From NCBI RefSeq assembly GCF_019748365.1, contig NZ_JAIEPN010000027.1, positions 1-64,000 on the forward strand: a DNA stretch of 64,000 bases, in the 5' to 3' direction. A program made the translations under genes and the position numbers. Shown here in pieces: positions 4,044-64,000 of the stretch. This stretch comes from Novosphingobium sp. GTDB lineage: Bacteria; Pseudomonadota; Alphaproteobacteria; Sphingomonadales; Sphingomonadaceae. Every line of letters starts with the position of its first letter. Positions within the stretch are counted from its first letter, which is position 1. The notes under the pieces were generated by a model. It did no database searches. It was not told where the DNA came from and worked only from the letters and a program-made list of their open reading frames with translations.

Positions 4044-4124
4044 CGTCATTCCCGCGAAGGCGGGAATCCAGAGCCGCCCACCCCGCGCCAGCCGCCCTGG
4101 ATTCCCGCCTTCGCGGAAATGACG
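4044..4124. repeat. Inverted pair of REP-like repeats (CGTCATTCCCGCG type)
   Basis: A copy of CGTCATTCCCGCGAAGGCGG at 4044 is followed by an inverted copy ending at 4124 with one mismatch. Each copy has its own internal hairpin. The same family recurs at 9822, 14234, 21754, 26362 and 62274, always between genes. It lies between the 3' ends of gltD and the leftward membrane gene. Confidence 0.8.
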
Positions 4125-8205: not shown

Positions 8206-9714
<1,509 letters not shown>

Positions 9715-9821
9715 GGGATTGCTCCTCCATTGGGGCTTGGTGTGGAGGCCTTATGCGCGTGCCTTGGTGGGCGGACATTGATGCGGATCAAGTGGGGACG
9801 TCGGCGTTCTGTCCCGATCTT

Positions 9822-9900
9822 CGTCATCCCCGCGGAGGCGGGGGTCCAGGGCGAAGGTGCGCTGTGGCCGCTCTGGATCCCCGCCTTCGCGGGGATGACG
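9822..9900. repeat. Inverted pair of REP-like repeats (CGTCATCCCCGCG variant)
   Basis: CGTCATCCCCGCGGAGGCGG at 9822 and an inverted copy ending GGGGATGACG at 9900. Same family as at 4044, in the C-rich variant. It lies in the 283-bp gap between the YgaP-like gene and the SnoaL-like gene. Confidence 0.8.
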
Positions 9901-9942
9901 AGGCGGTAGGGGGATGACGAGGCGGTAGGGGGATGACGAGGG
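9893..9942. repeat. 19-bp tandem repeat growing out of the REP end
   Basis: The unit GGATGACGAGGCGGTAGGG occurs twice exactly (9893-9911, 9912-9930), followed by a partial third copy. The first unit begins inside the right REP arm, so the tandem probably arose by slippage at the repeat edge. Confidence 0.8.
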
Positions 9943-9957
9943 GGCGTGTCGCGCTTG

Positions 9958-9979
9958 GTGTCTCGACTTCGCTCGACAC
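9958..9979. repeat. Short dispersed palindrome (GTGTCTCGACTTCG type)
   Basis: GTGTCTCGA and TCGACAC flank CTTCGC in an imperfect hairpin, 18 bp downstream of the SnoaL-like gene's stop. Its shape matches dispersed palindromic elements of alphaproteobacteria. It could mark the end of the P450 operon transcript. Confidence 0.4.
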
Positions 9980-9997
9980 GAACGGTGAGGGACGGGG

Positions 9998-10516
9998 TTA
10001 AAGTTGGCGGTACCTTTCGTGCCCACCCCCAAGTATCTCCAGGATCGGCAGCGGGAAGGCCGCGTTGGGATTGAACACCGGCTGGTCCGGGATCGGGTGC
10101 GACCAATCGAGCACATAGTTGCGCCGCGCGATGCGCCATTCGGTCCCGCGCTTTGCGAAGGTGTCGAGATAGCGGCCGCCGTATAGCGTGCCGGCGTAAG
10201 TGCCGTCTTCGCCCTGCCGCGCGCCGGCGGTGAGGCCATAGGTTTCGACTTCGGCATGCGATCCATCGACAAGGCGGATGGCCGGCGGGCCGCTCAGGTG
10301 CCAGCGCCGTGCGCTGCGGCGTTCGATGGCCATGACGACGGGGACGAACTCGGCGGCGCTGCCCTTGAAGAAGCCGTAGTCGACCGCGGCATCGGGCCAG
10401 AAGCAGCTGGCCTGTCCTTCCTCGTCGAGCCAATCGAGCGTGTGCGAGTAGCGCGCCAGCACATCGATGATCGCGTCCTTGGCGAGCAGATCATCTAGCG
10501 AGGTGGCAGCGGTCAT
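9998..10516 (-). CDS. SnoaL-like / NTF2-fold protein
   Basis: A 172-aa protein of the SnoaL-like family (NTF2-type cone fold). The start of the domain reads DLLAKDAIIDVLARYSHTLDW, and a late strand reads GTEWRIARRNYVLDW. Relatives are small-molecule dehydratases, cyclases or hydroxylase-associated proteins; the reaction here is not known. Start 10516 is chosen because its ATG overlaps the upstream stop (ATGA). It is the third gene of a leftward operon with a P450 and an ABM-like protein, all linked by 4-bp overlaps, so it should act on the P450 product or its ring-opened derivative. Confidence 0.75.
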   Translation of the reverse strand: MTAATSLDDLLAKDAIIDVLARYSHTLDWLDEEGQASCFWPDAAVDYGFFKGSAAEFVPVVMAIERRSARRWHLSGPPAIRLVDGSHAEVETYGLTAGARQGEDGTYAGTLYGGRYLDTFAKRGTEWRIARRNYVLDWSHPIPDQPVFNPNAAFPLPILEILGGGHERYRQL

Positions 10517-10914
10517 GCGCGGCCGGTCCACCATGCGGGAATGGTGAGCGGGAAGCGTTCCTGCGCGGTCTTCAGGTCCGCATCCGCATCGGCAGGAAGC
10601 GGCGCATCGACCGTCGGCGGGAGGCCGCCGCCCGCGCCCTTGACCGGGTCGAGGTATTCGAGGCGGATGCCATCGAGCACGGCGGCAAAGTCATGGCCTT
10701 CATGGTGCGGCGACATCTGGTGGCGGTAGAAGGTGGCCTTGTCGTCGAAGGAGAGCAGGCAATAGTAGAGGTTCGGTTCCTCGCCCTTCCAGTATTCGTA
10801 GCGCTTCACGCCGGTTTCGGTGGTCCAGGTCTGGTGGGCCATATCGGCCATGATCGCCTCCCACTTCTCCTCGGTGCCGGGCTTGATCCTGATGTGCGCG
10901 AGAAGGGTGGTCAT
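10513..10914 (-). CDS. Antibiotic biosynthesis monooxygenase (ABM)-like protein
   Basis: A 133-aa protein beginning MTTLLAHIRIKPGTEEKWEAI, a typical ABM-type dimeric alpha-beta barrel start, with an unusual Pro/Asp-rich C-terminal tail after residue about 95 (the P..VDAPLPADADADLK region). Some ABM proteins are cofactor-free quinol oxygenases; others only bind metabolites. The listed ORF start at 11040 is too long. ATG 10914 overlaps the P450 stop (ATGA), and its stop overlaps the SnoaL-like start in the same way, so all three proteins are translationally coupled. Confidence 0.7.
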   Translation of the reverse strand: MTTLLAHIRIKPGTEEKWEAIMADMAHQTWTTETGVKRYEYWKGEEPNLYYCLLSFDDKATFYRHQMSPHHEGHDFAAVLDGIRLEYLDPVKGAGGGLPPTVDAPLPADADADLKTAQERFPLTIPAWWTGRA

Positions 10915-12233
10915 GCCGTGGTCTCCGTTTCGAAGGTGCAGTGAAGCGCGAGCGTGCCGAGCATGATGCCCGGCTGGTGGAGGAAGGTGTTGCCGGGGGC
11001 GTAATCGAGGCTGGCGAGCCGGTCGCACAGGCGGTTCCACGCGATGGTCTGTTCGAGCCGCGAGAGGCCGGTGCCGGGGCAGACGCGCGGGCCGGCGGAG
11101 AAGGCGAGGTGGCGGGTGACGGCGGCGCGGTCGAGCTTCAACTCCAGCGGGTCCTCGAATTCGTCGGGGTCGATATTGGCGGCGCCCCAGCGCAAGTGGA
11201 GGGAGGAGCCTGCGGGGACATGGACGCCCTGAAACACCTCGTCCTGCGAGGTGATGCGGGTGGAGAGGCCCTGGGTCGGCGAGCGCAAGCGCATGCCTTC
11301 CTCGGTGAACGGGCGGATGAGGGCGCGGTCAGCCTTGATCTTGGCGAAGAGGCCGGGGCGTTCGATCAGCAACTGCGCTTGTTCGACGAGGGCGTACTGC
11401 GTGGTTTCCAGCCCGCCGATAACCATGGCGTAGACGATCCCGTCGATCTCGTCGTCGGTGAGCTTGCGGTCCAGCGCCTCGTAATGGACCTGCGTGAGGA
11501 AGCTGATCATGTCCTCGCCCGGATTGGCGCGGCGGCAGCGGACGTGATCCCGCACATAGTCCGAGAAACCGGCGAGGAGGCGGAACTTCTCGGCGGACTG
11601 TTCGGGCGTCAGAATATTGTTGTGCCCGCAGCCGTGGACATAGGACATGACCTGCGCATTGCCCCAGATCTCGAGGTCCTTCACGTCCTCCAGCGGGAAG
11701 CCGAGCACGCTGGCCATCGTGCGCTGGGGCAGGGGCCGGGCGAAATCGGCGACGAAATCGAACTGTTCGCCGGCGATCCACTGGTCAATCAGCGCATCAA
11801 CGTGGCCGGTGATCATGGCCTCGTGCCGCTTGGCGCCGGGGCCGACCCACGGATCGGTGAGCTGCTGGCGGTGCGCGCGCCACAGTTCTGGATTGGGGCG
11901 CAGCGAGGCGATCGATTTCACCATGGCATCGATATCGGGCATCGCGCGGACCGAGGCGGGATCGGCCTTGCGGGCTTCGAGCAGAAGCGAGAGCGTCGGT
12001 GGATACCTCTCCCAATCGCGCACAACGCGGGCGATGTCCTCGTACTTGGAGAGGATGAAGGCGTCGCGGTCCGGGGTCAGCCCTTCGCCGGGGAGGCGCA
12101 GCACGGGCGCTTCGGCGTGGAGGATGGCATAGGCCTCATACCAGTGCTCGGCCGCGCCGGGGGCGAAGAGATCGACGTCCGCCAGCGCACGCGGACACGC
12201 CATCGGGCTCAGCTCGTGATTGACGTGGCGCAT
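10911..12233 (-). CDS. Cytochrome P450 (leftward)
   Basis: A 440-aa soluble bacterial P450. The heme-binding loop FSAGPRVCPGTGLSR has its Cys near residue 385. The I-helix region reads GGLETTQ (the usual acid-threonine pair appears as ETT), and the K-helix is EEGMRLRSPTQ. It should hydroxylate a small hydrophobic substrate using a ferredoxin; no P450 ferredoxin or reductase gene is adjacent. First gene of a three-gene operon with ATGA overlaps. A second P450 of different sequence is on the divergent side, after the AhpD-like gene. Confidence 0.93.
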   Translation of the reverse strand: MRHVNHELSPMACPRALADVDLFAPGAAEHWYEAYAILHAEAPVLRLPGEGLTPDRDAFILSKYEDIARVVRDWERYPPTLSLLLEARKADPASVRAMPDIDAMVKSIASLRPNPELWRAHRQQLTDPWVGPGAKRHEAMITGHVDALIDQWIAGEQFDFVADFARPLPQRTMASVLGFPLEDVKDLEIWGNAQVMSYVHGCGHNNILTPEQSAEKFRLLAGFSDYVRDHVRCRRANPGEDMISFLTQVHYEALDRKLTDDEIDGIVYAMVIGGLETTQYALVEQAQLLIERPGLFAKIKADRALIRPFTEEGMRLRSPTQGLSTRITSQDEVFQGVHVPAGSSLHLRWGAANIDPDEFEDPLELKLDRAAVTRHLAFSAGPRVCPGTGLSRLEQTIAWNRLCDRLASLDYAPGNTFLHQPGIMLGTLALHCTFETETTA

Positions 12234-12360
12234 GGCCCTCTCCCCCGGCTTTATCCAAATAGCCAGTTGTTGTGGGGGGGATGGTGCATGACCAATGCGC
12301 AGGCTGCCATGCTCACTTTTGCCAAGACCATAAAGGGCAGCGGCTATGGGAGATCACAGC

Positions 12361-12948
12361 ATGACCCGCGTCGCCAAGATTGCGCCCGAGGACTGGGACC
12401 CGCGCCTGCGTGCAGCGCTGAAGCCGGAAGACCGCACCGAGATCGAACAGGGGATGATCCGCTTCCTTGCCCACTGCCCCGATCAGGTGCTGGGGATGAT
12501 GCAGTTTGCGGGCGCGCTGAAGGTGCATCGCCAGTTGCCCGAGAAGCTGGTCGAGCTGGTGCGGCTGCGCGTCGCGTTCTTCAACCAGTGCCGCAGCTGC
12601 ATGGCGATCCGCTATACCGACGCGCTGGAGGACGGCGTGACCGAGGACCTCGTCTGCTCGCTGGAGCGGCCTCAGGAGGCCGAGAACCTGACACCGGCGG
12701 AGAAGGCCGCGATCAAGTTCGGCGAGGCGTTCGCGACCGACCATCTGCGCATCGACGAGGCGATGTACGCTTCGCTGCGCGAACATTTCAGCGAGTCCGA
12801 GATTGTCGAACTGGGCATGACCTGCGCGTTTTTCGTTGGCTTCGGGCGCCTGGCGGCGACCTTGCACATGGTCGAGGAACTGCCCGATGCGTTCCGGCGC
12901 GAAGGCGTGGTCGCGCCCTGGGGCGAGGAACGGGTGGTGGTGCGATGA
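12361..12948 (+). CDS. Carboxymuconolactone decarboxylase / AhpD-like protein
   Basis: A 195-aa all-helical protein of the CMD/AhpD family. The motif FFNQCRSCMAIRYTDAL (residues about 77-93) carries the CxxC pair and the following acidic helix of AhpD-type alkylhydroperoxidases. It may reduce peroxides formed by oxygenases or act on a ring-cleavage product. ATG 12361 is preferred to 12346 because GGGAG lies 8 nt before it. Its stop overlaps the next P450 start (ATGA). The 127-bp gap to the divergent P450 operon must hold both promoters; I see no strong palindrome there. Confidence 0.82.
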   Translation: MTRVAKIAPEDWDPRLRAALKPEDRTEIEQGMIRFLAHCPDQVLGMMQFAGALKVHRQLPEKLVELVRLRVAFFNQCRSCMAIRYTDALEDGVTEDLVCSLERPQEAENLTPAEKAAIKFGEAFATDHLRIDEAMYASLREHFSESEIVELGMTCAFFVGFGRLAATLHMVEELPDAFRREGVVAPWGEERVVVR

Positions 12949-14210
12949 GCGAGGAGCTCGGCGTCAATCTGTTCGACCCGGCGGTGCAGCAGTGCCCTTA
13001 TGAGGCGTACCGCGTGCTCAGGGATCAGGCCCCGGCCTATCGCCAGCCGGGGACGAACATCTATGTGGTGACGCGCTACGAGGATGTGCGGCGGGTCTTG
13101 CTCGATACCGAGAATTTCCCGAGCAGCCCCAAGACCGCCGGACTGCAGACGCTCTCCGCTAATGTCGAGCGGCAGAAGAAGGTGGTCGCGCGGTTCAAGG
13201 AGCGCGGCTGGCTGCCTGAGCCGACCTTGAGCGGGCGCGATGATCCCAACCACAAGCAGATGCGCGCCATGTTCAACGAGGCGTTCAAGCCGAGCCGGAT
13301 CAAGGAAATCGATCCGCTGGTGGAAACGCTCGCCTACGAACTGATCGATGGCTTTGTGGCGGATGGGCGCTGCGAATGGGTCAGCCAGTTCTGCGTGCCG
13401 CTGCCGCTCTACATCATCGGCGAGCAGATGGGCGCGAAGCGCGAGGACATGTGGAAGATCAAGCGCTGGACCGACGCCTTCTTCAAGCGAATCTCGATGA
13501 TGCTGCCCGAGGAAGACGAGATCGAGATGGTCGACCGCGAGATCGAGGCGCAGCATTATTTCCAGCCGATCTTCGAGCGGCTGCGCGCGAACCCCGATGA
13601 CTCGCTGATCAGCGTGCTGGTCAACACCGTGATCGAGGGGTGGGGGCGGCCCTTGAACGACAACGAGCTCCATGCCGAGATGATGGCGGATACCTTCGTC
13701 GGTGGCAGCGAGACGACGACCAATGCACTGGCGGCGGGGATGAAGCTGCTGATCGAGAACAAGGACGTCTGGCTGAAGCTCAAGTCCGATCCCGAGCGCT
13801 ACATGAAGACCTTCGTCGAAGAAGTGGTGCGGCTGGAATCGCCGGTGCAGAGCCTCATGCGCTTCTGTGCGCACGATACCGAGCTGGAGGGCACGGTGAT
13901 CCCCAAGGGCGCGCTGGTGAACGTGCGCTTTGCCGCCGCGAACCGGGATGAGCGGGCGTTCGAATGCCCGGAGAAGCTGGACCTCGACCGGCCCAAGGCG
14001 GGGGCGCACATGGGCTTTGGTTCGGGCACGCACCATTGCCTTGGCGCGCCGCTGGCGCGGCGGGAGCTTTCATGGGGCTTTCAGGCAGTGGTCGACCGGT
14101 TCGAGGACATGCACTTTGCGGATGGCGCGAACGACTTTTCGGTGCACCCGCATTTTCTGCTGCGCAGCCTGAAGGCGCTGCATATCGAGTTCGAGGTGAA
14201 GCGGGGGTAG
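12945..14210 (+). CDS. Cytochrome P450 (rightward)
   Basis: A 421-aa P450. The heme loop GFGSGTHHCLGAPLARRE has its Cys near residue 365, the I-helix is GGSETTTNAL and the K-helix EEVVRLESPVQ. The ORF track joins it to a long artificial N-terminal extension from 10941; the real start is ATG 12945, overlapping the stop of the AhpD-like gene. It differs clearly in sequence from the leftward P450, so the pair likely acts at two positions or on two intermediates. REP-like repeats follow the stop. Confidence 0.93.
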   Translation: MSEELGVNLFDPAVQQCPYEAYRVLRDQAPAYRQPGTNIYVVTRYEDVRRVLLDTENFPSSPKTAGLQTLSANVERQKKVVARFKERGWLPEPTLSGRDDPNHKQMRAMFNEAFKPSRIKEIDPLVETLAYELIDGFVADGRCEWVSQFCVPLPLYIIGEQMGAKREDMWKIKRWTDAFFKRISMMLPEEDEIEMVDREIEAQHYFQPIFERLRANPDDSLISVLVNTVIEGWGRPLNDNELHAEMMADTFVGGSETTTNALAAGMKLLIENKDVWLKLKSDPERYMKTFVEEVVRLESPVQSLMRFCAHDTELEGTVIPKGALVNVRFAAANRDERAFECPEKLDLDRPKAGAHMGFGSGTHHCLGAPLARRELSWGFQAVVDRFEDMHFADGANDFSVHPHFLLRSLKALHIEFEVKRG

Positions 14211-14233
14211 GCCGGTTCCATCACCATGACACT

Positions 14234-14312
14234 CGTCATCCCCGCGAAGGCGGGGATCCAAGGAGACATCGCGCTGCGTCCGCTCTGGATCCCCGCCTTC
14301 GCGGGGATGACG
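14234..14312. repeat. Inverted pair of REP-like repeats
   Basis: CGTCATCCCCGCGAAGGCGG at 14234 and an inverted copy ending GCGGGGATGACG at 14312. It fills the gap between two convergent genes (P450 and the PQQ dehydrogenase). Confidence 0.8.
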
Positions 14313-14355
14313 AGGGGCGGGTTGCTGGGGGCGGGTGGCGAAAGGGCGGTGCCCC

Positions 14356-16242
14356 CTACTTCGCCACCTCGAACACCATCAGCGCGTTGCCAGGCGAGTG
14401 GCTGTACATGCCGTAGCCCGAGTTCACGAAGACCTTGCCTTTCCACACCGCTGCGCCGGGGCCGCTCATCGAGCCGCCCTTGGCCGTCTGGCCGCCGATG
14501 GCGGGCATGGGCTGGGTGGTGTCGTACTGCCACAGGATTGCGCCCGTATCGGCATCGTAGGCGCGCAGCATGCCATCGAGATGACCGCCGAAGACGACGC
14601 CGGGGATGCTGGTGACGGCAGCGGAAATGCCCGGATCGCAGAACTTGCGGCCTTCGCACTTGTCCTCGGCCTTGGCTTGCCAGATCACGTTGCCGGTCTT
14701 GGCATCGAGCGCATGGAGCCCGGCGCCGCGGATGGCCGGATCATAAAGGCGCGCGTCGCCTGTATCGGCCATGTCGTTGATGGGCACGAAGACGCGGCTT
14801 CCTTCCGCGCTCATGCCGAAATGGACGCCGCCCTGCGTGCCGCCATGGCCGAGCCGGGTCATCCACCTGACCTTGCCGGTCTCGGGATCGAGGCCCCAGG
14901 CCTGCCCGGACTTCTGGCCGACGACGATCATCTTCCCGCCGGTTCCCGTATCGACGAGGAGCGGGGAGGCGGCGACGTCGTAGTCCGGCCCGCCTTCCTT
15001 GGGGCACGAGCCGAGGCCCATCATGCAGCCGACATTCCACGCGTCGCCGAGCGTGAGCTGCGTGCTCCAGAGGCGCTTGCCGGTGGTGGCATCGACGGCG
15101 AAGACCGCGTCGGAACCGTCGTCGGCGGGGGTGGAGTAGTTCTCGCCCGAGCCGAAGTAGACGCGGTTGGTGGCCGCATCATAGGTCGGGCTGTTCCAGA
15201 CGGGCGCGCCGGAGGGGCCGAGGATCGGTGTGCCGTCCGCCGTCTTGCCCTGCGGCACGGGCTTGCCCGCCGTGTAGGCGCGCCACTTCTCCTCGCCGGT
15301 GGCAGGATCGACCGCGACGACCGAGCCGCGGAAGGTGCAGCAGGGATAGGCGGGATTGCCCGCCTGCACGACCTCGAGCGAGGAGACCGGCACATAGAGC
15401 AAACCGCCGCCCAGCGTGGGCGTGCCGGTGATCGTGGCATCGGCATGGTCGCTCATGCGCTGCGCCCAGATTTCCTTGCCGGTGAGAGCGTCGAGCACGT
15501 GCACCTTGCCGAGGAGATCACCGAAGTAGAGCCGCCTGGTCGAGGCTTCTGCGACAATGGCGGTGCGCACTTCGGCGCTGAGGCGCGTGGTCCACTTCGT
15601 GCAGCCGCTATCGGGATCGAAGGCGTAGACGGTGCCGTCCTGGCTGCCGACGAACAGCGTGCCCCATGCCACCGTGGGCTGCGAGCGGATATGCGTGGCG
15701 GCCGGATAGGCGAAGGCCCACTTCAGTTTCAGCTTGGGCACGTCCGCCTTGGCCAGCCCGGCGATCCCGGCAGGCACGAAGCGGCGGTTGTCATGCCCCC
15801 AGCCGATACCGGCGGGTACGTCGGTCATGTCGAACTTCGCAGACGCACCCTTGCAGCGCGGCGGCGGGGCCGGACGCTGATAGGAGGCATAGGGCGTGCG
15901 GGTGAGGTATTCGGCGACCTCGATCTTCTGCGCCGGCGTAAGTGTGGCGGACTGCTGGCGCATTACCCCGGTGGTCATCGCATTGATGATGGCATCGGGC
16001 GCGAGCATCGCCAGGAAGCTGGGCGAGGGCGCCTTGGGCACGCCGCCGAGGTGGCACATCGCGCAGTGCTGTTCGAACAGCGGGCGGCCGGGCGCTGTGG
16101 CTGGATCGATGGTGGGACCGGCGCGCGATTGCAGGTCCTCGGTCGATTTGATCCGCGTGGGGGTCGCGGCATGGAGCCCCGCGGCAAGCGCCAGCGCGGC
16201 GAAGCCGGATAGGACGGCAAGGCGGCCTGTCTTGAGCAGCAT
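14356..16242 (-). CDS. PQQ-dependent quinohemoprotein dehydrogenase, polyvinyl-alcohol-dehydrogenase-like
   Basis: A 628-aa periplasmic enzyme. It has a signal peptide (MLLKTGRLAVLSGFAALALAAGLHA), then a short cytochrome c domain with CAMCH (about 60-64), then an eight-bladed PQQ beta-propeller with repeated AxDxxTGKxxW blades. Adjacent cysteines in AYPCCTFRGS recall the vicinal disulfide of quinoprotein dehydrogenases. The domain order (heme c first, then PQQ) is that of polyvinyl alcohol dehydrogenases and differs from ethanol dehydrogenases, where heme is C-terminal. It probably oxidises an alcohol of a hydrophobic compound. A TTG at 16260 overlapping the upstream stop is an alternative start. 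Last gene of a four-gene leftward operon. Confidence 0.85.
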   Translation of the reverse strand: MLLKTGRLAVLSGFAALALAAGLHAATPTRIKSTEDLQSRAGPTIDPATAPGRPLFEQHCAMCHLGGVPKAPSPSFLAMLAPDAIINAMTTGVMRQQSATLTPAQKIEVAEYLTRTPYASYQRPAPPPRCKGASAKFDMTDVPAGIGWGHDNRRFVPAGIAGLAKADVPKLKLKWAFAYPAATHIRSQPTVAWGTLFVGSQDGTVYAFDPDSGCTKWTTRLSAEVRTAIVAEASTRRLYFGDLLGKVHVLDALTGKEIWAQRMSDHADATITGTPTLGGGLLYVPVSSLEVVQAGNPAYPCCTFRGSVVAVDPATGEEKWRAYTAGKPVPQGKTADGTPILGPSGAPVWNSPTYDAATNRVYFGSGENYSTPADDGSDAVFAVDATTGKRLWSTQLTLGDAWNVGCMMGLGSCPKEGGPDYDVAASPLLVDTGTGGKMIVVGQKSGQAWGLDPETGKVRWMTRLGHGGTQGGVHFGMSAEGSRVFVPINDMADTGDARLYDPAIRGAGLHALDAKTGNVIWQAKAEDKCEGRKFCDPGISAAVTSIPGVVFGGHLDGMLRAYDADTGAILWQYDTTQPMPAIGGQTAKGGSMSGPGAAVWKGKVFVNSGYGMYSHSPGNALMVFEVAK

Positions 16243-16256
16243 GGCGTGGGGCCGTT

Positions 16257-16553
16257 TCAATCGAGCGAGCGGTAGAATGCGAGCTTCATGTCCTCGGCGA
16301 GGCAGGCGAGCACGGGCGGCACCAGCCGATCATGAAAATCAATGTGCATATGGGTTTCGAATGCGGCGTCGTCCTTGAACGTGGCGACGCACTGGAACAG
16401 GTCGGGGTCTTCCTCCGACTGGAACAGCTCGTAGACGAGCGCGCCGGGTTCATGTTCGAACACCAGCTTCTTCAGCTCGGTCTGGAGCGCGATCAGCTCT
16501 TCGCGCTTCTCCGGTCTGGTGCGCAACTGGGCGATGAAGCTCTTTCCGCTCAT
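16257..16553 (-). CDS. ABM-domain protein 2
   Basis: A 98-aa ABM-type dimeric alpha-beta barrel protein: MSGKSFIAQLRTRPEKREEL, then YELFQSEEDPDLFQCVATFKDD, then HMHIDFHDR. Such proteins are small monooxygenase-like or isomerase-like metabolite-binding proteins. It lies 4 bp downstream of a second, divergent-in-sequence ABM gene and just upstream of the PQQ dehydrogenase. The precise activity is not known. Confidence 0.75.
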   Translation of the reverse strand: MSGKSFIAQLRTRPEKREELIALQTELKKLVFEHEPGALVYELFQSEEDPDLFQCVATFKDDAAFETHMHIDFHDRLVPPVLACLAEDMKLAFYRSLD

Positions 16554-16557
16554 GCTC

Positions 16558-16854
16558 TCAGGCTCCGGCTTCGAGATCGTAGAGCAGCTCGCGCGTGTAG
16601 GAGCCGTCCATGCAGGCGATCATCCGCTCGATCAGCGGCTGGTTGTGCGGGTATGCCACGTGCGCCTTGTCCGCTTCCTCGTCGGTGAAACGTTCGTAGA
16701 CCGCGAACATGCCGGGTTCGGCAAGCCGGTAGAACTGATAGGCCAGCGTGCCCGGCTCTGACGGGGCGAGCGCTTCCATCTCCTTGGCGAGCGCAATGAA
16801 TTCGGCTTCCTTGTCGGCGCGGATGCGGAAGCGGGAGAGGAAGGAAAAGGCCAT
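16558..16854 (-). CDS. ABM-domain protein 1
   Basis: A 98-aa ABM-type protein: MAFSFLSRFRIRADKEAEFI, YQFYRLAEPGMFAVYERFTDEE, then HVAYPHNQPLI. It has the same length as its neighbour at 16257 but only modest similarity, suggesting an old duplication or a heterodimer. Second gene of the operon that starts at 17442. Confidence 0.75.
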   Translation of the reverse strand: MAFSFLSRFRIRADKEAEFIALAKEMEALAPSEPGTLAYQFYRLAEPGMFAVYERFTDEEADKAHVAYPHNQPLIERMIACMDGSYTRELLYDLEAGA

Positions 16855-16872
16855 GTAGGGGTCTTTCTGGGT

Positions 16873-17442
16873 TCAGGCTTGCCGGGACTGTTCGTAGGCG
16901 GTCCAGCTGGGCAGGCGCTCGGGGTAGTCGGCCAGCTTCGGCTCGGGATAGGCGTGGTTGCGATCGGGCCGGGCCAGTATGCCGGGATAGGCCTCGACCG
17001 GGACGTAGTAGAGGAAGCCGATCACCCGCTCGGCGAACTTCCAGCCGGCAGGTGTTTTGCGGTAGCGATCATCATAGCGGATCGCGGCGACCATCATCCG
17101 GCCGTGGCGCATGAGCTCGGCATGGCCGGCAACGCGGCCGGTGGCGTTTTCCTCGTCTACGAAATCGATCTGGATATCGTGCATGACATGATGGCCGGGG
17201 CCGAGCACCGAAAAGCGACCATCGAACTGGGCCATGATCGCATCGGGGCCCACCGCGTGCATCACTCCGTCGTGGGAGCGCAGCACGGCATCGTCTGCGA
17301 ACAGCGCACGCACCGCATCAATCCGGCGATCGTCGATGTCGAAGCTGTAGTGCGCGACGAGCTGGCGGATCTGCGATTCGGCTTCCAGCCGCGCGATGCG
17401 CGCTTCCAGATCAGCCCCCGGGCTCGCCCCAAGATCAGGCAT
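16873..17442 (-). CDS. SnoaL-like / NTF2-fold protein
   Basis: A 189-aa SnoaL-like protein: ARIARLEAESQIRQLVAHYSFDIDDR, then GWKFAERVIGFLYYVPVEAYPG. It is a second copy of the fold found at 9998 but not a close duplicate. ATG 17442 (MPDLGASP) is preferred over the upstream listed start because the extra residues are Arg/Ser-rich read-through and GGGAGAG precedes this ATG. It heads the leftward operon SnoaL-ABM-ABM-PQQ dehydrogenase. An 18-bp operator-like palindrome lies 76 bp upstream (17518). Confidence 0.72.
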   Translation of the reverse strand: MPDLGASPGADLEARIARLEAESQIRQLVAHYSFDIDDRRIDAVRALFADDAVLRSHDGVMHAVGPDAIMAQFDGRFSVLGPGHHVMHDIQIDFVDEENATGRVAGHAELMRHGRMMVAAIRYDDRYRKTPAGWKFAERVIGFLYYVPVEAYPGILARPDRNHAYPEPKLADYPERLPSWTAYEQSRQA

Positions 17443-21753: not shown

Positions 21754-21843
21754 CTGGATCCCCGCCTGCGCGGGGATGACGAGGTTTTGGTAATCCTCAT
21801 TCCCGCTCAACCACTCGTCATTCCCGCGAAGGCGGGAATCCAG
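21754..21843. repeat. Inverted pair of REP-like repeats, mixed variants
   Basis: A C-rich copy (CTGGATCCCCGCCTGCGCGG, 21754-21781) faces a T-containing copy (CGTCATTCCCGCGAAGGCGG, 21816-21843). The two variants form one inverted pair between convergent genes. Confidence 0.8.
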
Positions 21844-26361: not shown

Positions 26362-26451
26362 CTGGATCCCCGCCTTCGCGGGGATGACGAGGGTGGGGTA
26401 CTCCACACTCGACGCCTAAACTTCGTCATTCCCGCGAAGGCGGGAATCCAG
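26362..26451. repeat. Inverted pair of REP-like repeats, mixed variants
   Basis: A C-rich copy at 26362-26389 faces a T-containing copy at 26424-26451. This is the same arrangement and variant pairing as at 21754, between the convergent ligase and thiolase genes. Confidence 0.8.
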
Positions 26452-57379: not shown

Positions 57380-58807
57380 ATGGCTGATATTGACCCCCAG
57401 ATCGACCGTTCCGACCGCTGCCCGGGGATCACTTATACCGACATGCTCGCCGTCGATACGCGCCCCGCGCCCGATTACCTCGTGATGGAATCGACGCAGG
57501 AGCTGGGCGACGAGCCGCTCGATCCGGATCGCTACACCAGCCCTGCCTTCAAGGCGCTCGAAGACGAGAAGATGTGGCCCAACGTGTGGCAGTTCGCCGC
57601 GCGCGAGGAAGACATGCCCGATCCGGGCGACACCGTGGTCTACGAGATCAATGACAAGTCGTTCCTGCTGATCCGCCAGAACGATGACAGCGTCCGCGCG
57701 TTCTACAACGTGTGCCTCCACCGCGGGCGCAAGCTGCGGCTGGAAAGCGGCCGAGCGATCAACTTGCGCTGCCCGTTCCATGGCTTCACCTGGAACAACG
57801 ACGGCAGCCTCAAGGAAATCCCCTGCGCATGGGATTTCAAGCATCTGGAAGACAAGGACCTGTCGCTCCCCGAACTCCGGGTCGAGCGCTGGCAGGGCTT
57901 CATCCTGATCACCGAAAATCCCGAACTGCCGGGTTTCCGCGATTGGATCGGCCCCGGCGTCGAGCATTACGACAACTGGCGGCTCGATGAATGCACCACC
58001 GGTGCCTGGGTGGCCAAGGTGGTGCCTGCCAACTGGAAGGCCGTGGCCGAGGCGTTCATGGAAGCCTGGCACTCGGTCGTCACGCATCCGCAGATCCTGC
58101 CGTTCACCGCGGACGCCAACACGCGCTATGATCTCTACGGCGACCACATGAACCGGGCGATCACGCCCAACGGCACGCTCTCGCCCCACCTCAAGGGCAA
58201 GGACCAGATGTATGTGATCAACAAGCTCGCCGAATTCCTCGGCGCGGGCGACGGGCGGGGGCGCCGCAATGCGGCCGAACCAACCGACCTCAAGGGCTTC
58301 GATCCGGAAGATCCGCTGCTCGCGCGCAAGGTCCTCGCGCAGGCCAATCGCGAAGGCTTCGCGGCGATGAACGGGCATGATTATTCCGAGGCGTCGGACA
58401 GCGAGATGCTCGACAACCTGACCTACAACATCTTCCCCAACTGGTCCCCGTGGGGCGGCTTCGTGCCGAACATCGTCTACCGCTGGCGGCCGTGGAAGGA
58501 TGCCGATCACTGCCTGATGGAAGTGCGCATCCTGATGCGCGCGCAGAAGGGCGAGAAGCCTGCACGGAGCCCCGAGATGTTCATGATCCCGGAGGGCGAG
58601 CCCTTCGCCTATGCCGGCCACCTCATTGGCGCGGCGCTGGCCGGCGTGTTCGATCAGGACATGGAGAACCTGCCGCACGTGCAGGCGGGCATGAAGGCCA
58701 GCAAGAACAAGCGGCTCGAGCTCGGCCACTATCAGGAAACCCGCATCCGCCAGTTCCACCGCACGATGGACAAGTACATTTCGGGTGAATTGCCGAAGAT
58801 GGCCTAA
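57380..58807 (+). CDS. Rieske non-heme iron oxygenase alpha subunit (4 of 4)
   Basis: A 475-aa oxygenase. The Rieske ligands are CLHRG (Cys112, His114) and CPFHGF (Cys131, His134). The iron site is in EAWHSVVTHPQ (His-x4-His). The middle part, PEDPLLARKVLAQANREGF, is unlike the other three, and the iron motif has Trp-His, so it is a separate subgroup. No beta subunit. It lies 177 bp after the Gfa-like gene. A perfect 30-bp repeat follows. Confidence 0.92.
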   Translation: MADIDPQIDRSDRCPGITYTDMLAVDTRPAPDYLVMESTQELGDEPLDPDRYTSPAFKALEDEKMWPNVWQFAAREEDMPDPGDTVVYEINDKSFLLIRQNDDSVRAFYNVCLHRGRKLRLESGRAINLRCPFHGFTWNNDGSLKEIPCAWDFKHLEDKDLSLPELRVERWQGFILITENPELPGFRDWIGPGVEHYDNWRLDECTTGAWVAKVVPANWKAVAEAFMEAWHSVVTHPQILPFTADANTRYDLYGDHMNRAITPNGTLSPHLKGKDQMYVINKLAEFLGAGDGRGRRNAAEPTDLKGFDPEDPLLARKVLAQANREGFAAMNGHDYSEASDSEMLDNLTYNIFPNWSPWGGFVPNIVYRWRPWKDADHCLMEVRILMRAQKGEKPARSPEMFMIPEGEPFAYAGHLIGAALAGVFDQDMENLPHVQAGMKASKNKRLELGHYQETRIRQFHRTMDKYISGELPKMA

Positions 58808-58927: not shown

Positions 58928-59938
58928 CTAAAGCTCCACCACCACCTTGCCCACATTCGCACCCGTGAAGAGCTTGGTGAATGCCGCCGGCGTCTCTTCC
59001 AGCCCATGGCTCACCTCGAACGGCAGGCGCAGCTGACCCGCTGCCGCCAGCCGGGCAAGCTCCGGATTGAATTCCGGCTCGCGCGCGTAGAAGTCGGGCG
59101 AGAAAAAGCCTTCGATGCGCAGGCGCTTCATCAGCACCTGATCGAAGCGGTATGGGCCGGGCACGGGCCCTTGCGCGATATAGTTCGTGATAAGGCCGCA
59201 GACCGCGACGCGGCCGAACAGCGCCATGTTCGCCAGCGCCGCATCGAGGATCGCCCCGCCGACATTGTCGAAATAGACATTGATCCCATCGGGGCAGAGC
59301 CGCGCTAGTTCGGCTTCGACATCGGCCGACTTGTAGTCGATCGCGCCATCGAAGCCGTATTCCCCGGTCAGCAGGTCGCACTTGGCCGCGCCGCCCGCGA
59401 TGCCGATCACGCGGCAACCAAGGGCCTTGGCGATCTGGCCGGCCATGAGCCCGGTGCACCCCGCAGCAGCGGAGACGACGAAGGTTTCGCCAGCCTTGGC
59501 TGCGCCGGTCTCCACCACGCCGACCCATGCCGTCCAGCCGTTCGCGCCGTAGATGCCGACGTATTCCTTCAGATCGGCGTGCGCGTCGTCCAGCACGGTG
59601 CAGTAGGTCGCGTCGGGTTCGACCACCGAGTAGTCCGCCCATTGGCCATAGCAGCGCACGCGGTCCCCGGCCTTGTAGGCGCCGTGGCGGCTCTCCACCA
59701 CTTCGCCCAGCACCGTGCCGATCAGCTTGGCGCCGAGTGGTGTGCCGGGCTGGTAACTGTCCTCGCGGTCGGTCATGTACATCCGGGTGCCGCTGTCCAT
59801 CGAGAGTACCTTGTTGGCGACGAGGATCTGGCCTTCCGCCAGCGCAGGCAGCGTTTCCGTCGCCATCGCGAAGGCTTCGGCATAGCCATTGCCGACAGGG
59901 CGCCGGGCGAGGATCCAGTGGCGGTTTTCGGTGCTCAT
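58928..59938 (-). CDS. MDR-family NADP-dependent oxidoreductase (prostaglandin-reductase/CurA-like)
   Basis: A 336-aa zinc-independent MDR protein: LSMDSGTRMYM near the start, GANGWTAWVGV, then VVSAAAGCTGLMAGQIAKALGCRVIGIAGG (NADP fold). The gap to the true start at 59938 is certain: AAGGACA precedes this ATG and the MSTENRHWILARRP start is typical, so the listed 1204-aa ORF is mostly shadow. It reduces the C=C of enones or enoyl esters. Divergent from the molybdoenzyme. Confidence 0.9.
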   Translation of the reverse strand: MSTENRHWILARRPVGNGYAEAFAMATETLPALAEGQILVANKVLSMDSGTRMYMTDREDSYQPGTPLGAKLIGTVLGEVVESRHGAYKAGDRVRCYGQWADYSVVEPDATYCTVLDDAHADLKEYVGIYGANGWTAWVGVVETGAAKAGETFVVSAAAGCTGLMAGQIAKALGCRVIGIAGGAAKCDLLTGEYGFDGAIDYKSADVEAELARLCPDGINVYFDNVGGAILDAALANMALFGRVAVCGLITNYIAQGPVPGPYRFDQVLMKRLRIEGFFSPDFYAREPEFNPELARLAAAGQLRLPFEVSHGLEETPAAFTKLFTGANVGKVVVEL

Positions 59939-60091: not shown

Positions 60092-62245
60092 TTGGCCGAT
60101 AAGACCCTGCGTACCTTCTGCCGCTTCTGCCATGCCAGCTGTGCCATGCTGGTCGATGTCGAGGGCGACAAGGTGACGGCGGTGCGGGGCGATCCCGAGA
60201 ACCCGCTGTTCAATGGCTATACCTGCGTGAAGGGCCGCCAGATGCCCGAAATGCACAACCTGCCCGAACGGCACCTGCGCCCGCTGGTGCGCAACGGCGG
60301 GGTGAAGGGCGCCGAGTTCGTCGAGACCTCCACTGCCGAGGCGCTGAAGCTGGTCGCGGACAAGATCAAGGCGGTCATCGCGGAGCATGGTCCTCATGCG
60401 GTGGCGCTCTATTGCGGCACCAATGCGTTCCAGAACAGCGCGGTGCTGGGCACCTCCTATGCGCTGGCGGAGGCGATCGGCACGCGCAATTACTATACCA
60501 GCGTCACGGTGGACCAGCCCGCCAAGGTCTTCACCACCGCGCGCTATGGCCAGTGGATGGGCGGGCCGAACAACTTCGAGGAATCCGACGTCGTCATGTT
60601 CGTCGGGAACAACCCGCTCGTTTCGCACTATACGCCGAGCGGCGGTGTGCCGCCGTTCTCGCCCTCGCGCCGCCTGCGCGATGCCAAGGCGCGGGGGATG
60701 AAGGTGATCGTCGCCGATCCGCGCCAGAGCGACACCGGCAACCTCGCCGACCTCTACCTGCAGGTGAAGCCAGGCGAGGATCCGGCGCTGCTGGGCGGCA
60801 TGCTGCATGTGATCATCAAGGAAGGGCTCTACGACCGCAATTTCGTGGCCGCGCATGTGGATGGGTTCGATGCGCTGGCGGACGCGGTGAAGGATTTCAC
60901 GCCCGAGCTCGCTGCCGACCGCGCCGGGGTTCCGGCGGAGCAGATCGTTGCCGCCGCCCGCATGTTCGCCCGCGCCGCCAAGGGCCGCGTGGTGACGGGC
61001 ACCGGGCCGGAAATGGCCGGCCGCGGCGTCCTCACCGAATACATGGTGACCGCGCTCAACGTGGTTTGCGCGCGGTTCAACCAGGCGGGGGACAAGGTGG
61101 CGAACCCGATGGTGTTCATGCCCTTTGCCGCCGGGCCGAAGAAGGCGCAGGTCGCGCCGCCGATGCCGATGTTCGGCGAAGGCTTCACCAAATCGCGCAT
61201 CCGGGGCATTGGCAAGCTCGGCACCGAAATGCCCTGCCCGGTGCTGGCGGACGAGATCCTCACCCCCGGCGAGGGACAGATCAAGGTGCTGATCTCGATC
61301 GGCGGCAATCCCGAGATCGCCTTCCCCAACCAGCGCAAGGTGAGGAAAGCGCTCGAGACGCTCGACATGTTCGTGCAGGTCGATCCCTACATGTCGGCCA
61401 GTGCGAAGCGGGCGGACGTGATCCTCGCGCCCTCGATGTGCCTTGAGCGCGAGGACATCAACAATGTCTCGCAGCCCTTCTGCGAGGAGCCTTATGCCCA
61501 CTACGCCGAAGCGATGGTGCCGCCGCCGGGTGACACGATGGACGAGTACGAGATGCTCTGGTGGATCGCCAAGCATCTTGGCTTGCAACTGCAATTGCCC
61601 GGCGGGCCGTGCTCGATGGAGAGCGTGCCGGACAAGATGACGATGCTCGACCTCATCTCGCACGGCTGCCTCGTCGCGCCCAGCAAGGCGCGCGCGGATT
61701 CGCTGGCGAGTCCGACCCCGGGTGGGGCGATGTTCTATCCCGAGGTCCATGCCACGATCGCGCCGCCGGACCCCGATGCCGCAAACCGCTTCCAGCTTGG
61801 CGCGGGCGATATGCCGGCGGCCTTTGCGGGCTATGCCGCGCGGCGGCCCGAGGCGGATGGCTTCGATTTCCGCCTCATCTCGCGCCGCTCGAAGCACCGC
61901 TACAACAGCAACGGGCACATCTCGGAATTCCTCAAGAAAAAGATGCCGACCAACCCGGCTTACTTCAATCCGGAGGACTTGGCCGAACTGGGCGTGGAGG
62001 ACGGCGCGGTGATCGAGATCGCCTCGCGCGTCGCCTCGATCCATGCGGTGGCGAGCGCGAGCGATAAGGTGCGCCGCGGGGTGATTTCGATGTCCCACGC
62101 CTGGGGCAACGACGATGCCGGCAAGGACGACGTGATGACCGTCGGCGCCTCGACCAACCGCCTGATCGACGACGAGGACGATGCCGATCCGATCACCGGC
62201 ATGGTGCTGCAAAGCGCGATTCCGGTGCGGGTGGTGGCGGCCTGA
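60092..62245 (+). CDS. Molybdopterin (bis-MGD) oxidoreductase
   Basis: A 717-aa enzyme with a 4Fe-4S motif at the N-terminus (CRFCHASC...YTCVKGR, Cys10, 13, 17, 45). MGD-binding regions follow (VDQPAKVFTTARYGQWMGGPNNFEESDVVMFVGNNP; VIVADPRQSDTGNLAD), and a C-terminal MGD domain includes SMSHAWGNDDAGKDDVMTVG. It is in the DMSO-reductase superfamily without a signal peptide. No ATG is in frame; TTG 60092 with GGGAG upstream is the likely start. The substrate is unknown; relatives act on hydroxylated aromatics or alkyl chains. Confidence 0.85.
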   Translation: MADKTLRTFCRFCHASCAMLVDVEGDKVTAVRGDPENPLFNGYTCVKGRQMPEMHNLPERHLRPLVRNGGVKGAEFVETSTAEALKLVADKIKAVIAEHGPHAVALYCGTNAFQNSAVLGTSYALAEAIGTRNYYTSVTVDQPAKVFTTARYGQWMGGPNNFEESDVVMFVGNNPLVSHYTPSGGVPPFSPSRRLRDAKARGMKVIVADPRQSDTGNLADLYLQVKPGEDPALLGGMLHVIIKEGLYDRNFVAAHVDGFDALADAVKDFTPELAADRAGVPAEQIVAAARMFARAAKGRVVTGTGPEMAGRGVLTEYMVTALNVVCARFNQAGDKVANPMVFMPFAAGPKKAQVAPPMPMFGEGFTKSRIRGIGKLGTEMPCPVLADEILTPGEGQIKVLISIGGNPEIAFPNQRKVRKALETLDMFVQVDPYMSASAKRADVILAPSMCLEREDINNVSQPFCEEPYAHYAEAMVPPPGDTMDEYEMLWWIAKHLGLQLQLPGGPCSMESVPDKMTMLDLISHGCLVAPSKARADSLASPTPGGAMFYPEVHATIAPPDPDAANRFQLGAGDMPAAFAGYAARRPEADGFDFRLISRRSKHRYNSNGHISEFLKKKMPTNPAYFNPEDLAELGVEDGAVIEIASRVASIHAVASASDKVRRGVISMSHAWGNDDAGKDDVMTVGASTNRLIDDEDDADPITGMVLQSAIPVRVVAA

Positions 62246-62273: not shown

Positions 62274-62348
62274 CTGGATCCCCGCCACCGCGGGGATGAC
62301 GAACTGTCTCTGACATAACCCTCGTCATTCCCGCGAAAGCGGGAATCC
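62274..62348. repeat. Inverted pair of REP-like repeats, mixed variants
   Basis: A C-rich copy (62274-62301) faces a T-containing copy (62323-62348, last bases diverged). Same variant pairing as at 21754 and 26362, after the molybdoenzyme stop. Confidence 0.75.
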
Positions 62349-62459: not shown

Positions 62460-64000
62460 TCAGAACTTGAAGCTCGCCTGGACGAAGACCTGACGGCCGC
62501 GGTTGACGGTGAAGACTTCGTCGTCACCGATCGGAAGACCATTGCCCGGCCCGGCGAGGAACGGACGTCCGCCCGAAGTGTTGACGAAGATCTTGTCGGT
62601 GATGTTGTTGCCGATCAGCGCGAGCCGCCACTTGCCATCGGGCGCGCCGATCGAGATCGAGGCATCGATGGTGGCATAGGCAGGCTGCTGGTAATCAGCC
62701 ACGTTTTCCTGCCGGGTGTAGTAGCTGCCGCTATAGGCCACGTTGCCGGAGAGGCCGAGTTCCAGCGCATCGCTGATCGGTGCGGCGTAGTCGAAGGCGA
62801 TGTTGCCAGCGAACTCCGGAGCACGCGCGGCGCGGCGGCCCCTGATGTTCGGATCGTCGGCGGTGCCGAGAACGCCGTCGGGGCCTGTGCCGGTGAAGAA
62901 GTCCCGCGTGAACTTCGCATCGGTATAGGCAAGCGAGCCGGAGAAGCGCAGCCCCTCCACCGGCGGACGCCAGCTGAAGTCGACGTCGATACCCTTGGTG
63001 GTCAACTGACCGGCGTTGGTGGTGACGAACTGGATCGTGGTGGCGTTGAAGTTCTGCACCTGCAGGTTGTTGAACACGTAGTAGTAGGCCGTCGCGTTGA
63101 ACGTGATCGTGCGGTTGGCGAGCTGCGACTTGAAGCCGATTTCGCCGCCCTTGCTGGTTTCCGACTTGAAGATCAGGCCGTTGGCGGCTTCCTGGAAGGT
63201 TGCCGGATCAAGGAACTTGGCAAGGTTGCTCGAAGGCAGCGCGCTGTTGTCGATACCGCCCGACTTGTAGCCGGTCTTGAACGCGGCATAGACGTTGAAG
63301 TCCGGATTGACTTTGTAGCGCAGCGTCACTTCCGGCGACCAGTTCGTATCATTGAACTTGATCGGCGGGGTGGCGAAGCCGCTGTTCACGAAGCCGAAGA
63401 CCGTCGAAAGGAACTGGTGCATGTAAGGAATGACGATCGTGTTGACCTTGTCTTCCTTGGTGTAACGGACACCGCCGGTCAGTTCGAGTTGCTCGGTAAT
63501 GTCATACGTGGCGCTGCCGAACAGCGAGTAGGTGTTCGTCTTCGTGCGGTGCCTCTTGAAGTAGTCGAACGTGTTGCCTGTCACCGGGTCCGGGAACAGC
63601 AGCGAGGCGTTGAACGCCTGCTGCGAGGTGTTGAACTTGATCACGCGGCTTTCATAGAAGGCGCCGAGCGAGAAGTTGATCGGCCCATCGTAGCTGCTGA
63701 CAAGGCGCAGTTCCTGCGTGAACTGGGCCGTCTTGTTGACCGGATCGCTGCCGCCGACGCCCTGGGGCGAGCCCACGGTGTTGACCGCATCGAGCGCGGG
63801 GGCCGAGAACGGCCCAAGCGCCGCAAGCACGAGCGGCAACCCGCTTGGACGGAACGCCTTGCCGACGCCGAGATAGCTGTAGGAATCGTAGTCGATCGCG
63901 TCGAGGTTCATGTAACCCGTGGTCGAGACCAGCTTCAGGTTGTCGCCGAGCTTCGCGTCCATCTTAAGGCGCGTGAAAAACAGCTTCGTCTCGCCGAAGG
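62460..64000 (-). CDS. TonB-dependent receptor, C-terminal part (partial)
   Basis: The frame stays open to the right edge (FGETKLFFTRLK precedes the listed Met), so the plug domain and signal peptide are outside the window. About 513 residues of the beta-barrel are visible, ending QVFVQASFKF with the usual terminal Phe. The barrel contains GYKSGGIDNSALPSSN, a sphingomonad-type FKTGYKSGG strand. A second receptor for the region, with a strong terminator behind it. Confidence 0.92.
   Translation of the reverse strand, partial: FGETKLFFTRLKMDAKLGDNLKLVSTTGYMNLDAIDYDSYSYLGVGKAFRPSGLPLVLAALGPFSAPALDAVNTVGSPQGVGGSDPVNKTAQFTQELRLVSSYDGPINFSLGAFYESRVIKFNTSQQAFNASLLFPDPVTGNTFDYFKRHRTKTNTYSLFGSATYDITEQLELTGGVRYTKEDKVNTIVIPYMHQFLSTVFGFVNSGFATPPIKFNDTNWSPEVTLRYKVNPDFNVYAAFKTGYKSGGIDNSALPSSNLAKFLDPATFQEAANGLIFKSETSKGGEIGFKSQLANRTITFNATAYYYVFNNLQVQNFNATTIQFVTTNAGQLTTKGIDVDFSWRPPVEGLRFSGSLAYTDAKFTRDFFTGTGPDGVLGTADDPNIRGRRAARAPEFAGNIAFDYAAPISDALELGLSGNVAYSGSYYTRQENVADYQQPAYATIDASISIGAPDGKWRLALIGNNITDKIFVNTSGGRPFLAGPGNGLPIGDDEVFTVNRGRQVFVQASFKF

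Follow-up and report, generated by a model that had tools for sequence, protein, structure and literature searches.

A 64,000-nucleotide stretch of the Novosphingobium sp. contig NZ_JAIEPN010000027.1 (hereafter the window), from a host genome of 4.55 Mb, contains five genes arranged as two divergent operons around a shared promoter region. These genes probably work together as a single conserved cassette in an aerobic catabolic pathway of sphingomonads, whose substrate would be alicyclic (steroid- or terpenoid-like). Their identities were confirmed from the sequence and by Pfam searches, which returned the families p450, ABM, SnoaL_4, CMD and p450, in agreement with the arrangement described in an earlier note on this DNA. 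The leftward operon (minus strand) starts with the cytochrome P450 termed P450a (10911..12233), followed by an ABM protein (10513..10914) and a SnoaL_4 protein (9998..10516). The rightward operon (plus strand) comprises a CMD/AhpD-like 'peroxidase-related' protein (12361..12948) and a second cytochrome P450, P450b (12945..14210). The region between the operons measures 127 bp (12234..12360). None of the five proteins matched an NCBIfam model above its curated cut-off.

The distribution of the cassette proteins was determined in 401 sampled genomes of the family, using identity floors of 71% for P450a, 73% for P450b and 67% for CMD. P450a was carried by 17 genomes, P450b by 24 and CMD by 16, making P450b the most widespread of the three. 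P450b was present in 16 of the 17 P450a carriers, usually divergent and adjacent (hypergeometric 8e-22), and in all 16 CMD carriers. None of the three proteins was found in any of 10 sampled congeners, and a phylum-wide sample of 399 genomes gave no additional P450a at E 1e-90. The same divergent neighbours accompanied P450a in contig records named Novosphingobium, Sphingopyxis and Erythrobacter, and the order of the cassette was retained across several genera despite different surroundings. Of 44 testable P450a loci (pooled from two collections, with some genomes represented twice), 41 had ABM as the next gene after P450a, among them every testable sphingomonad locus; the three exceptions were non-sphingomonads at 62-65% identity. 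Mantel tests showed that P450a distances correlate with the distances measured for P450b, CMD, ABM and SnoaL (r 0.77-0.84, p 0.001). Between genera, P450a similarity was 71-80% compared with 61-74% for SerS of the same genomes in those cases that gave a single-piece SerS alignment. Since P450a is at least as similar between genera as SerS and its distribution is patchy, horizontal spread is suggested, although strong constraint could yield the same numbers.

The junctions within the operons were then compared with those of the relatives. As stated in the earlier note, every junction is an ATGA, shared by the P450a stop and the ABM start and repeated between CMD and P450b; for the ABM stop and the SnoaL start this requires the ATG at 10516 as start, since the alternative upstream ATG at 10534 gives a 22-bp overlap with ABM. 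Similarly, the divergent gap is 112 bp if CMD begins at the ATG at 12346 instead of 12361, and in relatives it is mostly 81-133 bp. Six of the 32 adjacent same-strand gene pairs in the window overlap by exactly 4 bp, three of them outside the cassette, and its 12 divergent gaps span 65 to 422 bp. The overlaps and the 127-bp gap of the cassette are therefore ordinary in themselves. The conservation expected of the P450-ABM-SnoaL neighbourhood held for the gene order, which is kept across genera, but not for the overlaps, as the nearest Novosphingobium clade alone preserves all three at exactly -4. Elsewhere the spacing was -4 to +22 for P450a-ABM, about -4 to +18 for CMD-P450b and usually -4 for ABM-SnoaL. 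Conserved overlap was accordingly rejected as a hallmark of the cassette; the conserved trait is gene content and order, beyond chance. The tight P450-ABM coupling that had been proposed was borne out by packed units kept across genera, and the shared promoter region carries a conserved element.

This element is 16 bp long and was located by motif search at 12254..12269, reading CAACTGGCTATTTGGA on the minus strand (TCCAAATAGCCAGTTG on the plus strand). All 26 non-redundant regions between P450a and CMD contained its consensus, TCCAATCTGCCAATTG, which scored 17.7 bits against about 8 for shuffled regions; the search places a site in every region by design (the weakest in L044), and the shuffles leave relatedness in place. 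Several lineages possess two inverted copies, one beside each operon. Within the window, 12254-12269 was the sole matrix match at 12 bits or more, and the degenerate pattern matched exactly at four sites in the genome, three of them beyond the cassette. When eight loci with P450b and without P450a, all outside the training set, were scanned with the matrix, five (L066, L068, L070, L072 and L073) carried the element ahead of CMD or P450b, against 0-2 matrix matches in shuffled 64 kb. The shared-promoter element, conserved across genera and found also in P450b-only genomes outside the set used to build it, is new here. It is a candidate operator, and could also be a promoter core. The cassette holds no regulator gene. 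Of the three genome matches beyond the cassette (L062, L063 and L065), the first two had their surroundings read in a regulon search and lie at no catabolic operon, and neither sigma-70-like promoters nor intrinsic terminators were found in 9700-14500. L040, L041 and L042 have a strong extra copy (22.4 bits) at 11667, where ABM ends and immediately ahead of the short-chain dehydrogenase/reductase (SDR) gene that stands in for SnoaL, in the orientation opposite to that expected of a rightward promoter.

Cassettes lacking individual parts were also found. An SDR with intact Rossmann motif and YxxxK occupies the SnoaL slot in L039-L043, and weak matches place an SDR in the same slot in L014, L016, L017 and L019. 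CMD is absent from L052 and L081, and the CMD gene is missing from the Porphyrobacter RI_32 cassette. P450b without P450a occurred in eight sampled genomes, and at five of these eight loci P450b and SnoaL were directly divergent with no P450a, ABM or CMD between them. Based on these variants, the module can be divided into four units, P450b, P450a+ABM, SnoaL/SDR and CMD. Other arrangements were also seen. On a Halieaceae contig (L055), P450a-ABM and P450b were convergent, not divergent, with no CMD or SnoaL detected. One Novosphingobium metagenome-assembled genome had two P450a-ABM copies on separate contigs (L034 and L035), one in a full cassette, the other with a poor SnoaL match and neither P450b nor CMD detected.

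Both P450s exhibit the ExxR motif, the FxxGxxxCxG cysteine heme loop and the I-helix acid-alcohol pair of bacterial P450s. For P450a, in which conservation was followed over 43 sequences, these read EGMR, FSAGPRVCPG and GGLETTQ, and for P450b EVVR, FGSGTHHCLG and GGSETTT. The closest solved structures were CYP150A6 for P450a (E 5e-34) and CYP142A3 for P450b (E 2e-52). As these matches are distant and share no context with the cassette, no function was transferred from CYP150A6 or from the CYP142/CYP125 steroid monooxygenases; a CYP family name or substrate was considered and not assigned.

The SnoaL protein was analysed by profile searches, an AlphaFold model and Foldseek. The profile search retrieved the Novosphingobium putative scytalone dehydratase 3ef8, BaiE and LinA. 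The model (mean predicted local distance difference test score, pLDDT, of 83, with a low-confidence C-terminal tail) has an NTF2 fold and matched the same three structures. Residues Y23, D28 and H73 were invariant in 28 sequences and aligned onto the catalytic Tyr/Asp/His of BaiE, which we take to be Y30, D35 and H83 after subtraction of a presumed 19-residue tag. The fold and the Tyr/Asp/His positions are thus shared with the bile acid 7-alpha-dehydratase BaiE, LinA and scytalone dehydratase, while identity is low (about 14-22% in Foldseek). Because of these matches and the residue set shared with BaiE, the protein is predicted to be a dehydratase of this type, which is likelier than a cyclase, and dehydration reads better than the 'rearrangement' previously proposed for it. 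The ABM protein has a C-terminal extension and was assigned to the dimeric alpha+beta barrel fold of the quinone-forming monooxygenase family from Pfam, a 37-sequence alignment and a monomer model (mean pLDDT 90.5), which Foldseek matched to YgiN/LsrG-type barrels. Its fold neighbours include LsrG, SnoaB and the cyclase OAC. No published account of the role of a P450-coupled ABM protein was found.

The CMD protein scored 47.5 against the Pfam CMD cut-off of 23, and 43.1 bits against TIGR01926, for which the curated cut-off is 81.8. In AhpD, the histidine of the catalytic C-x2-C-x3-H motif matters. Alignment to PA0269 and of 30 homologs showed that the CMD protein shares the fold family and the CxxC (C77-x2-C80) with AhpD and PA0269-type peroxidase-related proteins, but that the histidine position is occupied by arginine (Arg84) in all 30. 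Peroxide removal, as suggested in the earlier note, is therefore doubtful even with the CxxC kept, and an AhpD-type reaction was rejected since the motif is incomplete.

A larger conserved cluster surrounds the cassette, or just P450b, in Erythrobacter, Porphyrobacter and related genera. This cluster encodes a molybdopterin oxidoreductase, a KstD-like FAD dehydrogenase, SDRs, Rieske oxygenases, an acyl-CoA ligase, a thioesterase, curcumin-reductase-type (double-bond reductase) members of the medium-chain dehydrogenase/reductase (MDR) family, a glyoxalase, NmrA and further ABM and SnoaL proteins. In the present genome, relatives of these genes are dispersed. Four lie near the end of the window: a Rieske oxygenase alpha subunit (57380..58807, plus strand), 63% identical to one adjoining the cassette in L081/L082 and probably of the same pathway; an MDR-family reductase (58928..59938, minus strand), with 53% identity to relatives from the cluster around the cassette in other genera; a molybdopterin oxidoreductase (60146..62245, plus strand), 65% identical to its cluster relative, which adjoins P450b in L081/L082; and a TonB-dependent receptor (62460..63962, minus strand; its open reading frame runs to the edge of the window), which shares 53% identity with the L081/L082 cluster receptor. 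Contig C142 encodes KstD-like (64%), MDR (77%), Rieske (60%) and NmrA (65%) proteins identical to cluster members at the levels given, and contig C113 an SDR (61%) and an MDR protein (71%). Since the wider cluster is catabolic and relatives of many of its members occur in this genome, the gene context suggests a pathway that breaks down a hydrophobic ring compound. Two further groups of genes were observed. C142 (L087) carries three tandem SnoaL_4 genes together with Rieske, TonB, KstD-like and MDR genes, forming a second catabolic island. Adjoining the cassette in the Novosphingobium clade, 14356-17442 encodes a quinoprotein dehydrogenase-like protein, two ABM proteins and one SnoaL_4 protein, which do not accompany the cassette in other genera.

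The following scheme, including its reaction order, is postulated. The two P450s would act as class I enzymes that hydroxylate a hydrophobic alicyclic compound or an intermediate thereof, with electrons supplied by a ferredoxin and reductase encoded outside the cassette. The ABM protein may work together with P450a or at the step immediately following it, either as a P450 accessory or as a cofactor-free isomerase/oxygenase. The new hydroxyl would be processed by the third-slot enzyme of the P450a operon, through elimination by the NTF2-fold dehydratase or, in one group of relatives, through oxidation by the SDR. CMD could assist P450b in some lineages as an optional partner with a redox or lyase function, and would not be a canonical AhpD peroxidase. 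Both operons would be controlled from the single 127-bp region through the 16-bp element and a regulator encoded outside the cassette. A steroid- or terpenoid-like substrate is our guess from the KstD-like neighbour, the BaiE-like SnoaL protein and the CYP142-like P450b, each individually weak. The titles and abstracts found for an abscisic-acid lead held nothing specific. As a tentative extension of the scheme, the cassette may be a transferable module, with an obligate P450a+ABM pair in which ABM is accessory or product handler, a swappable dehydratase/SDR slot, and a 16-bp element that travels with it and places both operons under a host regulator.

Several observations weigh against the catabolic cassette as proposed. 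Neither P450 closely resembles a characterised enzyme, and the substrate class is conjecture: the KstD-like protein scores equally to cyclohexanecarboxylate dehydrogenase and to steroid enzymes, and falls far below curated cut-offs. The P450a relatives outside the sphingomonads (L048-L050) have no ABM, and L067, L069 and L071 have no 16-bp element at P450b. Genome relatedness can inflate both co-occurrence and motif scores. Several carriers hold the cassette among housekeeping genes (L034, L036); the cassette can therefore occur without the wider cluster, and the pathway link could be secondary. The same genomes, with L038, are consistent with a role in making or modifying an endogenous lipid other than a polyketide (carotenoid, hopanoid or sterol-like), since a module for lipid modification could occur on its own, as the cassette does in several genera. 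Such a role is unlikely given the patchy distribution of P450a (17/401), the catabolic cluster that surrounds the cassette in many other carriers, and the several orthologs of that cluster in the window and on C142, with no search aimed at terpene synthases made. Standalone cassettes, together with the CxxC retained by CMD, would also suit detoxification by broad-specificity P450s and a protective CMD/AhpD peroxidase with no defined pathway. This reading is quite unlikely, however, as the AhpD histidine is arginine throughout, CMD is dispensable, and the matched divergence and strong conservation of the partners fit a specific substrate better.

It is improbable that the two P450 operons are mere neighbours that share a promoter gap by chance and act on separate substrates. 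The eight genomes with P450b only, and one genome (G205) in which P450a and P450b are on different contigs, could be explained in this way, but the presence of P450b, usually divergent and adjacent, in nearly all P450a carriers and the paired inverted copies of the element, one per operon, could not readily be. The earlier note had preferred polyketide tailoring to catabolism, with the P450-ABM-SnoaL unit decorating and rearranging a polyketide of the strain itself. The family names ABM and SnoaL do derive from polyketide tailoring enzymes, and the ABM model resembles the SnoaB and OAC structures, although these ranked behind generic family members. A whole-genome search for ketoacyl-synt, however, revealed one FabF-sized match (451 aa) and three short, weak matches, with no long polyketide synthase frame. 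With 13 SnoaL_4 genes (over cut-off) and eight ABM genes in the genome, including three ABM-SnoaL neighbour pairs, both labels are generic here. The neighbours of the cassette in other genera are catabolic, the SnoaL protein is nearest to dehydratases, and P450s in biosynthetic gene clusters are rare in the class, amounting to 2.4% of alphaproteobacterial P450s (PMC8197338). Polyketide tailoring was rejected on the ketosynthase search and the neighbourhoods; it is largely refuted and very improbable.

Six inverted doublets resembling repetitive extragenic palindromic (REP) sequences, GTCATCCCCGCGAAGGCGGGGATC, were observed in the window, with none expected by chance: 4045-4123, 9823-9899, 14235-14311, 21757-21840, 26365-26448 and 62277-62347. 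The second (9823..9899) and third (14235..14311) flank the cassette on its left and right sides.

Many sphingomonad P450s are orphans, for which a conserved partner set is the best handle on substrates. P450a+ABM, P450b and the 16-bp element can serve as a marker of the cassette, with the wider catabolic cluster often around it. The natural variants (P450b only, P450b+SnoaL, SDR for SnoaL, no CMD) show which genes work without which, and the cassette is an inexpensive system for learning what a P450-coupled ABM protein does. The barrel fold of EthD, the small partner of another P450, is related to the ABM fold. No paper describing the present gene set was found.

The cassette was finally compared with the closest known P450 systems. 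The edc estrogen-degradation cluster of Novosphingobium (Caenibius) tardaugens is likewise a sphingomonad catabolic system with a P450 (EdcA) and two divergent operons, arranged around a 137-bp gap, with a linked TonB receptor (PMC7793797). It also has no ferredoxin or reductase gene inside, and electrons for EdcA were proposed to come from ferredoxins encoded elsewhere (PMC7793797). The cassette differs in having two P450s, ABM, SnoaL/SDR and CMD and no regulator of its own, and neither a 4,5-extradiol dioxygenase nor an indolepyruvate ferredoxin oxidoreductase was found among the five cassette genes and the conserved neighbours scanned. In the ethRABCD system a P450 is similarly coupled to a small partner, the 10-kDa EthD, reported to be essential for activity (PMC7934444). 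In the cassette the small protein is ABM (PF03992) instead of EthD, and the five genes include no EthD, ferredoxin, reductase or AraC regulator. As proposed, the cassette would be a P450-centred catabolic one, a kind already known, with a gene set that is new to the literature found.

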